Under the pieces are notes generated by a model. It searched no databases. It was given only the letters and a program-made list of their open reading frames with translations, and was not told the origin of the DNA. DNA of 11,153 nucleotides from Chitinophagaceae bacterium. Its GTDB lineage: Bacteria; Bacteroidota; Bacteroidia; Chitinophagales; Chitinophagaceae. The first letter of the stretch is position 1. The number at the start of each line of letters is the position of its first letter. The position numbers were made by a program, and so were the translations under genes. Location of the stretch: positions 1-11,153 of the forward strand of contig JALOMX010000046.1 of the NCBI GenBank assembly GCA_025455245.1. The letters run 5' to 3'. Shown piece by piece: positions 6,152-11,153 of the stretch.

Positions 6152-7030
6152 TTAGTCCTTTTTTTGTCCAAATAACCACGGCAGCAGATCAGGTTCTTCA
6201 AAGGCAGGATCCCAACTGTTGTGGCCAACATTTCCGTAAAGGGTGAAATTAACCTCCGCCCCCGCATAAAACTCCTGCAAGGCATAAACCATCTGCTCGC
6301 TCAGTTGATAGGGAACCACATCGTCTTTATCGCCGTGAAAAATCCAGAAGGCGGTTTCCTTAATGGAAGCTGCCGTTTTGGGATTGGCCCCACCGCAAAT
6401 AGGTACAGCCGCTGCAAAATATCCGGGTTTTCTGCGCACAATTTCAAAAGTACCCATACCGCCCATGCTTAACCCCATCACATATCGCTGCAACGGATCG
6501 ATTTTATATTTCTTCTCCAGTTCAGGCAACCAATACAAAAGCATCTTCATGGATTGAGTAGGCGCACCGGATTCAAGAAAATTAAACGACCATTTTTTGG
6601 TGGTATCATTCATTTCCATTTCAACATTGCTCCAGAAATCATTTTCAGGGCATTGCGGGAAAACCACAATCGCGGGATAATTTTCACGCACTTGGGGTTG
6701 TAAAAAAAGGTTGGCACCATGAATCAATTGCTTTTGATTGTCGCTGCCACGCTCACCGGCCCCATGCAAAAAAAGAACAAGCGGGTACTTTTTTGACGAA
6801 TCATAATCAGCAGGCAACAGGAGCCTGTACTTAAGGGTATCTCCCGATTGAGGAATCCATTCATGCTTTTGATAAGCACTATCGGTATTAAATGCAATGA
6901 ATCCGGTGGACTTTTTTTTGGGTGCCTGTACCCCGATGGCGCCCTTTGGCCTTGGATTCTGACTATAACCGGCTATAGATAAAAGGCAAACAACCAACAA
7001 GCAAATACTGCGGCAGAGCTTATCATTCAT
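6152..7030 (-). CDS. Secreted alpha/beta-hydrolase (esterase/predicted peptidase type)
   Basis: Exported serine hydrolase of 292 residues related to the predicted peptidase / dienelactone hydrolase-like and polyhydroxybutyrate-depolymerase-like families. A signal peptide covers residues 1-23 (basic start, CLLVVCLLSIAGYSQ). The oxyanion region is LHGAGERG at 88-95, the nucleophile Ser188 lies in the elbow GLSMGG, the acid is Asp236 in FHGDKDDVVP, and the base is His270 in GHNSW, so the triad is complete. A TTG-started extension to 7066 is possible but would put polar residues in front of the signal peptide; ATG at 7030 is preferred. It leads a two-gene operon with the HAD phosphatase and is divergent from the S9 peptidase gene, with 108 AT-rich bases between them. 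Natural substrate (ester or peptide) is not known. Confidence 0.82.
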   Translation of the reverse strand: MNDKLCRSICLLVVCLLSIAGYSQNPRPKGAIGVQAPKKKSTGFIAFNTDSAYQKHEWIPQSGDTLKYRLLLPADYDSSKKYPLVLFLHGAGERGSDNQKQLIHGANLFLQPQVRENYPAIVVFPQCPENDFWSNVEMEMNDTTKKWSFNFLESGAPTQSMKMLLYWLPELEKKYKIDPLQRYVMGLSMGGMGTFEIVRRKPGYFAAAVPICGGANPKTAASIKETAFWIFHGDKDDVVPYQLSEQMVYALQEFYAGAEVNFTLYGNVGHNSWDPAFEEPDLLPWLFGQKKD

Positions 7031-9361: not shown

Positions 9362-10227
9362 ATGCGGAAAATACTTTGTATAGGTGAGGCACTCATTGAT
9401 ATGATTTGCACCGACAAGGGAAAACCTTTAACGGAAGGGGATCATTTTTTAAAGAAAGCAGGCGGTGCACCGGCTAATGTGGCGGCAGCTATTGCAGCTT
9501 TAGGAGGAGAGGCAGATTTGGTTGCAAAAGTGGGCATCGATCCCTTTGGGCAACACCTTGCGGATATGCTCGATGATATGGGTGTAGGCACACAGTTTGT
9601 GTTTCGCGATAAAGAAAACTTTACCACAATCGCTTTTGTGTCGCTGATGGAAAACGGTGAACGCGATTTCTATTTTAACCGCGGCGCCGATGGCCAACTA
9701 TCCGTCAGCGACCTTTCAAACATTGATCTTTCAGCTTATTCTTTGCTCCATTTTGGAAGTGCAACCGCATTCCTCAACGGGCCTTTACAGCAATCCTATA
9801 TTCATCTGTTGAGCGAGGCCAGAAAACAAGGACATTTTATCAGTTTCGATCCCAACTATCGAAAGAGGCAATGCTTTTAACCGGTGCCGACGCTGTTGAA
9901 TCAGCTGCCAAAATCTTCCTGAAAGAAACATCTGCTGTATTTGCCATAACCCTTGGTGCAAAAGGTACACTCTTAGGCTTAAAAGGTGAAACGATTGTAA
10001 TTAAAAGCATACCTGTTGAGCCTGTAGATACAACCGGCGCAGGCGATGCTTTTGTTGGGGCATTGTTATATCAGTTGCAGCAGTATGGAGCCACTAGCAC
10101 ATTTACCTGCAGCAAAGAATTCTGGATAAAAATGGTGATGAATGCCAACAAGGCCGGTGCACGAACATGTATGTATATGGGGGCGATGGAGGCATTTCGC
10201 TATTTGAACAGGCAAATATTTGAATAA
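9362..10227 (+). pseudogene. PfkB-family sugar kinase (fructokinase-like), broken by deletion and frameshift
   Basis: Ribokinase-family carbohydrate kinase in two frames. The first part, 9362-9880, encodes the substrate-binding N-terminus: GEALID at 8-13, PfkB signature GGAPANVA at 34-41, and SFDPNYR at 161-167, then runs into RQCF and a stop. The second part continues in another frame from about 9862 with KEAMLLTGADAVESAAK, and includes the ATP/catalytic signature DTTGAGDAF with the catalytic Asp near 10045-10047, ending at 10227. In intact fructokinases about 35-40 residues normally separate DPNYR from the (E)EE..LLTG helix; here they are missing, so this is an internal loss of roughly 110-120 bases, not a single-base slip. 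Neither part alone could be a working kinase. Both halves otherwise read cleanly, so the lesion is recent or an assembly error. It is downstream of the S9 gene on the same strand. Confidence 0.85.
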
Positions 10228-10331
10228 GCTATTTCATCTTACTAAAAATGAAACTAAAGCAGTTTAAAATACTGTAAAGTTGTGATAATACGTTGCCGGA
10301 ATCTTATTAATAATAGATGTGAAATAGGCAC

Positions 10332-10450
10332 TTACCCTAATTCTGTTACAAAAAACCCTTCCATTTACCCTAACTTTGTTACAATTTTATTTAATTTTTA
10401 CCCCTATTTTGTTACAAAAATAGGTCTCATTTACCCTAATTTTGTTACAA
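10332..10450 (+). repeat. Four 20-base repeats with an exact 33-base period
   Basis: Copies start at 10332, 10365, 10398 and 10431, each 20 bases long with 13-base spacers. The consensus is TTACCCTAATTTTGTTACAA; copy 4 is perfect, copies 1 and 2 differ at one base each and copy 3 at two. The spacers differ in sequence, although the AAATAGG before copy 1 recurs before copy 4. Each copy ends in the small palindrome TTGT-T-ACAA. Copies 2 and 4 also contain TAnnTTTG, the Bacteroidota -7 element (10371-10378 and 10437-10444). The array lies 53 bases upstream of the AAA ATPase start. Possible roles are a phased operator or iteron-like binding array for that gene; it is too short in repeat and spacer for CRISPR. 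Confidence 0.85.
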
Positions 10451-10503
10451 GATAAAAGAAAACGAAACCAAAAACACCGTTATTAATTGATAATTAACAC
10501 TTT

Positions 10504-11153
10504 ATGAAATTTTATAGAAAAGCCATTGAAAAACTTTCAGAATGGCAAAATAAACCTAACCGAAAGCCATTGGTTTTACGAGGCGCAAGACAGGTAGGGA
10601 AATCAACCCTTGTAAGGCAATTTTCTAAAAGATTTGATTACTATATAGAGTTAAACCTCGAAAGAAAGGAGGATGCCTCCTTCTTCAACGAGTTTAAAAA
10701 TGTATTACAACTTGTTGAAGCAGCTTGTCTAAGCAAAAACATTCCCTTTGCACCAACGAAAACCTTATTATTTATAGATGAGATACAGCAGGTGTCTGAA
10801 GCGATTGCCATGTTGCGTTATTTTTACGAAGACCTTCCTGATTTGCATATCATTGCTGCCGGGTCGCTGCTTGAATTTGCAATGGGAGATGTTTCTGCCA
10901 TGCCTGTTGGACGTATTGAACTGTTAAAGTTGCATCCCATGGATTTTGAAGAGTTTTTGTTAGCATGCGATGAACAGAAGGCGCTACTTTATTGGAAGGA
11001 AGTTCCTATGAAGGATTTAGCATTGAATAAGTTGATGGGGTTATTTAACAGGTATCTCATTGTAGGAGGTATGCCTGCTGTAGTTGAACAATATGTAACA
11101 AACGGCCAAATGCTAAATGGCTTAGGTGAAGCATATGCATCCATTTGGGATGT
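10504..11153 (+). CDS. AAA_14/DUF4143-type ATPase (5' part, cut by window end)
   Basis: The first 216 residues of an ATPase of the COG1373 type (AAA_14 domain, usually followed by DUF4143); full members are about 380-400 residues, so roughly half is visible. The start MKFYRKAIEKLSEWQ is typical of the family. Walker A is GARQVGKST at 27-35, Walker B LLFIDE at 88-93, a sensor-like AAGSLLEF lies at 118-125, then PVGR at 134-137, and a VGGMPAVV segment at 187-194 that normally opens the C-terminal part. The frame is intact to the last base. The ATG at 10504 follows an AT-rich leader with no Shine-Dalgarno. Function of the family is poorly known; members are often multi-copy and strain-variable, and the phased repeats just upstream may control this one. 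The AT-rich composition differs from the left half of the window. Confidence 0.85.
   Translation, partial: MKFYRKAIEKLSEWQNKPNRKPLVLRGARQVGKSTLVRQFSKRFDYYIELNLERKEDASFFNEFKNVLQLVEAACLSKNIPFAPTKTLLFIDEIQQVSEAIAMLRYFYEDLPDLHIIAAGSLLEFAMGDVSAMPVGRIELLKLHPMDFEEFLLACDEQKALLYWKEVPMKDLALNKLMGLFNRYLIVGGMPAVVEQYVTNGQMLNGLGEAYASIWD

Follow-up and report, generated by a model that had tools for sequence, protein, structure and literature searches.

Operators built from repeated sites have been described before, a close precedent from a defence locus being RptR: this 9-kDa regulator, encoded in a Type I restriction-modification island, acts on three 9-bp repeats that lie close together (PMC12255303). The array described here resembles that arrangement, in which a defence locus has repeated sites with palindromic cores in its promoter and itself encodes the regulator that binds them (PMC12255303), but differs from it in that the ATPase is itself supposed to be the reader, the units are about 20 nt long and recur at 32- or 33-nt steps, and each gene has a unit of its own. 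The second point of comparison is PDC-S01, an ATPase fused to a PD-(D/E)XK member, which is listed as the fourth most common defence system across prokaryotes, with anti-phage validation pending for most such PADLOC candidates (PMC12988326); it is treated also in PMC13356809, and DUF4143 appears as a table entry in PMC4406477. The ATPase studied here and ten relatives that were scanned match the PADLOC models for PDC-S01, whereas an upstream array is no part of the description of the system in the accessible portions of PMC12988326. Neither a paper on repeats upstream of these ATPases (sought by title, start of abstract and open-access PMC text) nor a mechanism for PDC-S01 (open-access text) was found, which is weak evidence of absence given that the search was limited to open-access PMC text. 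In the same literature, we found no case of a private array for each candidate immune ATPase, apparently read by the effector itself.

The DNA analysed is a stretch of 11,153 nt from a Chitinophagaceae genome (2.6 Mb, 78% complete), referred to here as the window, which makes up an entire contig (C359). It contains the following features:

10332..10351, + strand: unit 1, sequence TTACCCTAATTCTGTTACAA, matrix score 29.3
10365..10384, + strand: unit 2, contains TAnnTTTG, matrix score 27.3
10398..10417, + strand: unit 3, matrix score 25.4
10431..10450, + strand: unit 4, closest to the ATPase gene, contains TAnnTTTG, matrix score 29.0
10352-10364, 10385-10397 and 10418-10430, no strand: three 13-nt spacers, sequence unconserved
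10504..11151, + strand: 5' part of the AAA_14 ATPase gene, a PDC-S01 candidate, 216 aa, then the contig end

The ATPase reading frame opens 53 nt beyond the array end, and its product matches Pfam AAA_14 (98.4 bits) and, over the first half of the protein, PADLOC model PDLC04788 for PDC-S01 (292.9 bits); it is 47% identical to its relative at locus L057 (alignment A2). The DUF4143 or PD-(D/E)XK-like C-terminal part falls beyond the contig end in the window and is found in full-length relatives. Further upstream, a PfkB-type kinase gene (9362-10227) is split between two overlapping frames (9362-9880 and 9871-10227) and has no stretch corresponding to the interval between profile positions 168 and 200; it is either a broken gene or an assembly fault.

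The first-pass annotation had described an exact 4 x 33-nt phasing of near-identical 20-nt units with differing 13-nt spacers, and both descriptions were borne out: the units start at 10332, 10365, 10398 and 10431, all on the + strand, with pairwise identities of 17-19/20, compared to 2, 4 and 7/13 for the spacers. A scan allowing up to three mismatches found four unit matches in the window and none in 200 dinucleotide shuffles; Tandem Repeats Finder gave no report. The units end in TTGTTACAA in three cases and in CTGTTACAA in unit 1. At 10.5 bp per turn, 33 nt corresponds to 3.14 turns, so that adjacent units lie about 51 degrees apart around the helix and the outermost pair about 154 degrees apart; the proposal that the units face nearly one side of the DNA therefore holds for neighbours but fails for the outer units.

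TAnnTTTG is the Bacteroidota -7 consensus. Its presence in two copies had been noted and is correct, but the match does not appear to be a design element: the key unit position, at which the search pattern permitted either base, is A in 9% and T in 91% of 233 units, so that TAnnTTTG is not kept among the units of relatives as a series of promoters. No sigma-70-type promoter or terminator was found in a scan whose models do not cover Bacteroidota promoters. One forward frame stays open across the array in the window; a coding repeat was nevertheless rejected as unlikely, since the steps of relatives are a mixture of 32, 33 and 34 nt, and the 32- and 34-nt steps break the frame.

We then considered where the array recurs. 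Single units were matched, with up to two mismatches, in 11/148 genomes, counting the source genome. Five arrays lay outside the source genome (two in G133 and one each in G089, G098 and G096), with 3-4 units at 33-nt steps, apart from one step of 32 in G096, and each was directly upstream of an ATPase with an RKPLxxRGARQVGKTT signature. The six other matches outside the source genome were single copies without such an ATPase; the single-copy matches L006, L008-L012 and L016, which have neither array nor ATPase, were judged to be chance. A second search, for two units with a free step of 18-48 nt, covered genomes of 84,980 species and viral contigs and returned 88 loci in the genome collection and six in viral contigs. 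The step of the first pair was 33 nt in 76 of the 88 loci, 32 in eight, 34 in three and 48 in one (L113), and 33 nt in 6/6 viral loci. By record title, nearly all 88 loci belong to Bacteroidota or Ignavibacteria/Chlorobiota, many being metagenome bins, with single records titled Deltaproteobacteria, Delongbacteria, Saccharospirillaceae and Clostridia. The Clostridia record is L113, which was rejected as chance; its roughly 24-nt repeat at about 6587-6700, which includes TTTGTTACAACTTGTAA words, is seemingly unconnected with the ATPase arrays.

An ATPase of the superfamily begins just downstream of the array in 62/88 loci, which supports the tie of the array to this family that had been proposed. 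A locus was counted when the gene started between -60 and +400 nt after the array; 61 were found by script, including L058, where the ATPase is of another AAA_14 clade and has its start 180 nt off, and some broken genes (L047, L067, L093), and the remaining one, L121, was missed by the script owing to a second array behind the gene. The L042 locus reaches the end of its contig. This recurrence upstream of the ATPase in many genomes implies that the array is neither randomly placed nor limited to the source genome, refuting both possibilities.

Detailed anatomy was derived from 54 ATPase-linked loci. Arrays of three units are the most frequent (24 loci), followed by four (14), two (9), five (5) and six (2), and the steps are 33 nt (104), 32 (22), and 34, 66 and 121 (one each). 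The matrix built from 233 distinct units reads about TTrCCyTTrYTyTGTTACAA, most of this core having been fixed by the search pattern. An in-frame ATG was identified in 45 of these loci. In 44 of them its distance from the end of the array is between -5 and +61 nt, the exception being L058 (+180); in L037, L053 and L074 the start codon and the last unit overlap. By its position, the array thus sits at the start region of the ATPase gene, as an operator would.

Constraint on the units and on the step had also been claimed, and is supported by a comparison of 18 independent array pairs, in which differences per site were 0.078 in the core, 0.373 in the spacer and 0.272 in coding DNA; the core differed less than the spacer in 18/18 pairs, a contrast that is exaggerated, most of the core having been set by the search pattern itself. 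The step is nearly constant though it was left free in the pattern. The related claim that the array is not a simple duplication stands insofar as units are kept while spacers differ between arrays, and has to be qualified for L101, L081 and L102, whose near-identical spacers indicate that whole units do duplicate. These three loci are what favours an ordinary minisatellite, an explanation that we find scarcely credible, as arrays recur beside one gene family (the 62 loci above) across many lineages, spacers in the window array are only 2-7/13 identical, and units stay while spacers change, even allowing for the inflation by the search pattern.

The arrays without an ATPase just downstream (25/88 loci) comprise 20 with none in the examined stretch and five with one elsewhere (L049, L059, L081, L088, L098); in L059, the array is placed after the ATPase. 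When the genomes of 23 of the 25, all except those of L059 and L113, were searched for a canonical ATPase, a match above 490 bits was present in six (L049, L070, L079, L102, L106, L111), with an internal stop in those of L049 and L070, indicating that, as far as these assemblies go, a near-canonical gene is missing from most genomes with an orphan array. The genome of L042 has an intact canonical ATPase. By eye, the orphan arrays of L038, L088, L098 and L102 adjoin genes that seem truncated on the array side. In L121, the second array lies about 1570 nt after the first, behind the ATPase gene, and if arrays flanking an ATPase recombined, the gene could be lost and an orphan array remain. In the viral contigs L028, L031 and L033, a two-unit array occupies the same spot between two genes, with no ATPase in the examined stretch; the units are alike and the spacers are different in L033.

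Two further explanations bear on these loci. It is very improbable that the array marks where a mobile element ends, or serves as an origin with the ATPase as its initiator: the existence of orphan arrays, the arrays on either side of the L121 gene and a weak structural match to origin-binding proteins (below) would suit it, but the 200 nt downstream of 51 genes hold no clear common motif, only AT-rich words near shuffled levels, with the unit present in L121 alone, and an element end was rejected on this basis. A replication role for the array, as an iteron proper, has no support. Alternatively, the array might be mainly a platform or sensor, at which the ATPase is stored, licensed or assembled, or which it uses to activate rather than repress. 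Fixed steps across 2-6 units suit an ordered assembly, the ATPase is a defence candidate, and two-unit arrays are retained in the related viral contigs; the tight placement at the start codon, however, fits gene control, and no sign of assembly was seen. We regard this platform explanation as unlikely.

Similar arrays accompany more than 100 related genes, often each with its own word. In the source genome, a second ATPase with a canonical array is found on C140, while AAA_14/DUF4143 paralogues on C328, C235 and C290 have different units at a 32-nt step; a further paralogue on C65 was negative by script, with a weak 32-nt pair visible by eye. Since the differing units beside paralogues in one cell each follow their protein, they argue for the ATPase, rather than a common host factor, as the reader. 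A separate host protein that reads the arrays, silencing or co-regulating these accessory genes, would account for arrays that lack an ATPase directly downstream, but is at odds with paralogues of one genome whose units differ and track the protein clade and, in clade B, the helix described below; we consider it quite improbable.

To survey the family independently of the unit, 59 relatives were sampled by protein; 70/74 loci yielded a gene, and 69 genes were scored for upstream self-matches. A score of at least 14 was reached by 41/69, at lags of 32 (23), 33 (6), 23 (7), 22 (2) and others (3), compared to 5/345 shuffles, with scattered lags. Among 263 other genes used as a control, from which windows with the canonical motif were left out, 33 reached 14 at scattered lags, five of them at 32/33 and none at 22/23; two of those five stem from the array of an AAA_14 gene in L049. 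Six genomes reached via array loci contributed 29 genes, with lags of 22 (3), 32 (5), 33 (7) and others (2). In the phylum of a Clostridia record, lags of 22, 23, 32 or 33 were found in 0/20 genes; two genes there (L250, L252) are preceded by repeats spaced 39 and 40 nt. When the protein-sampled sets were combined with a phylum-wide sample, 85 of 183 ATPase genes scored at least 14, with lag 32 in 42, 33 in 16, 22 in 8, 23 in 8 and others in 11, amounting to 58 genes with 32/33-nt arrays and 16 with 22/23-nt arrays, or 74 together.

On the protein tree, the step follows the clade while the units differ. The lag is mostly 33 for RKPL-type proteins of about 455 aa, 32 for clade B proteins of about 385 aa, 23 for the GxRRSGKS group and 22 for a GPRQVGKTT group with TTTACTCAA...TTGAGTAAA, and the best PADLOC models for one member of each are PDLC04788 (33), 04789 (32), 04787 (23) and 04791 (22). 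The GPRQSGKTT clade is mostly without an array, L132, L155 and L294 having lags of 22/23. In clade B, the best lag was 32/33 in 44/49 genes, 38 of them scoring at least 14, with 1/490 shuffles at 32/33. A protein search for the canonical clade in 296 genomes yielded six ATPases, all with a best lag of 33 (6/6, scores 14-35), two of which have no unit detected by the matrix and one a single unit. Protein matches also occurred in 10 phage and 362 plasmid records, ten of which were examined: arrays stood beside genes of Treponema saccharophilum, Bacteroides uniformis, B. finegoldii and two faecal phage-labelled contigs, a weak array was present in a Desulfosarcina record, and none was found beside the ATPase gene in the records of Thermus, Allochromatium, Dinoroseobacter and Sinorhizobium. 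The two faecal contigs (L361, L362), whose deposits call them unverified phage, encode clade A ATPases, and the 33-nt arrays there consist of differing units. At L144, L156, L344 and L348, long repeats occur at 51-53 nt instead, those of L144 ending in CCATGAAAAT/ATTTTTCATGG.

Structures predicted with AlphaFold for L057 (canonical, pLDDT 93.3) and L020 (clade B, pLDDT 89.6) can, by our own domain reading, be divided into an AAA+ domain, a putative winged helix made up of helices and strands, and, last, a PD-(D/E)XK-like region. The best Foldseek match in the PDB for the clade B model was the archaeal AAA+ ATPase SSO1545 (2fna; TM 0.53-0.57), although the two are only 17% identical and the comparison covers structure alone, not the DNA beside the SSO1545 gene. 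Archaeal Orc1/Cdc6 initiators are AAA+ proteins with a winged helix that act on repeated DNA sites at origins. The present family would be similar on these points, and Orc1/Cdc6 on DNA was the first match of the canonical model, but the match is weak (TM 0.27-0.31), there is no sign of replication, and the ATPase has a PD-(D/E)XK-like part.

Covariation between protein and unit was measured in the 32-nt clade B, a clade other than that of the window ATPase. For all 47 motif calls, a partial Mantel test gave a partial r of 0.114 (43/5000 permutations), and at the strictest motif score the association was lost (partial r 0.017, 1966/5000). Because the motif caller picks different parts of the unit, we adopted a test on in-phase trimers, and because that test was chosen after the partial Mantel outcome, it was repeated on new genes. 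Among 47 dereplicated training genes, particular trimers accompanied particular residues at the position just ahead of the conserved Thr in the putative recognition helix: Asn with TCA (11/12 vs 7/35 of the other genes), Lys with GGA (8/11 vs 6/36), and Glu with CCG (4/7 vs 4/40) and CGA (4/7 vs 6/40). None of 400 label permutations reached the best p. This helix column ranks third of 311 alignment columns; the top two go with GAC, which we take to mean that they mark one subclade. Of 52 new genes, 42 were less than 80% identical to all training and held-out genes, a cut that leaves some shared ancestry, and 37 of the 42 had a best lag of 32/33, 30 of these scoring at least 14. In this held-out set, both main associations recurred (Asn-TCA 10/14 vs 4/28, p=0.0004; Lys-GGA 6/9 vs 8/33, p=0.025), along with Asn-GAC (5/14 vs 1/28) and Asn-CAC (4/14 vs 1/28), while Glu was represented by one gene only, in which CCG was present and CGA absent.

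The array might instead work as RNA, as a series of small hairpins in the 5' leader, a role that the palindromic form of many clade B units would suit. Such a role would also suit the three loci in which the start codon overlaps the last unit and the excess of G-T over A-C among palindrome mismatches (43 vs 24 in 161 copies). However, A-G exceeds C-T as well (18 vs 8), so the G-T excess may reflect strand composition; steps near whole helical turns (22/23, 32/33) are needless for RNA; the unit goes with a helix residue of what looks like a DNA-binding fold; and no Rfam family matched 10100-10700 of the window at E 0.1. Action at the RNA level is accordingly less likely than binding by the ATPase, and we hold it to be improbable.

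What computation shows is thus the array and its recurrence, a step specific to the clade, units that differ from paralogue to paralogue and, within the 32-nt clade, covariation of helix and unit. On these grounds we think it probable that each PDC-S01 candidate ATPase binds its own phased array over the start region of its gene and represses itself. In the group tested, the unit word goes with the predicted DNA-touching part of the ATPase, which makes it probable that these ATPases bind to their own genes and regulate them; the step goes with the clade, suggesting that it is fixed by protein-protein contacts; and the array covers the start region, suggesting repression. Under this self-repression model, the winged helix of the ATPase would bind the units, and contacts between the bound proteins, presumably cooperative, would set the step at 33 nt in the window clade, 32 in another and 22/23 in others. 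A filled array would cover the promoter and start region and switch the gene off until the ATPase is drawn off or changes state. The releasing signal may be phage infection, a guess that we make because the family is a phage-defence candidate.

Several observations count against self-reading. An ATPase is not directly downstream at 25/88 array loci, and many family members have no array, including 0/20 in the phylum of the Clostridia record and most of the GPRQSGKTT clade. The partial Mantel association is weak and lost at the strictest score, and two columns outrank the helix column. The G-T lean of the palindrome mismatches would also be expected from RNA pairing.

A broader and more doubtful version, to which we give little weight, would make these arrays private, sequence-matched docking sites for candidate immune AAA+/nuclease-like proteins throughout a large family, in which the clade sets the step and the recognition helix sets the word, and in which the array keeps the protein in an ordered, silent assembly that is released by phage infection or by phage-borne units. 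If the array is indeed cognate to its ATPase, it would name a DNA target of a PDC-S01 protein and supply probes for binding and footprinting, and the control of a PDC-S01 system would become testable. Cognate arrays across the family would, moreover, amount to a naturally occurring set of matched helices and words, from which a recognition code may be read.
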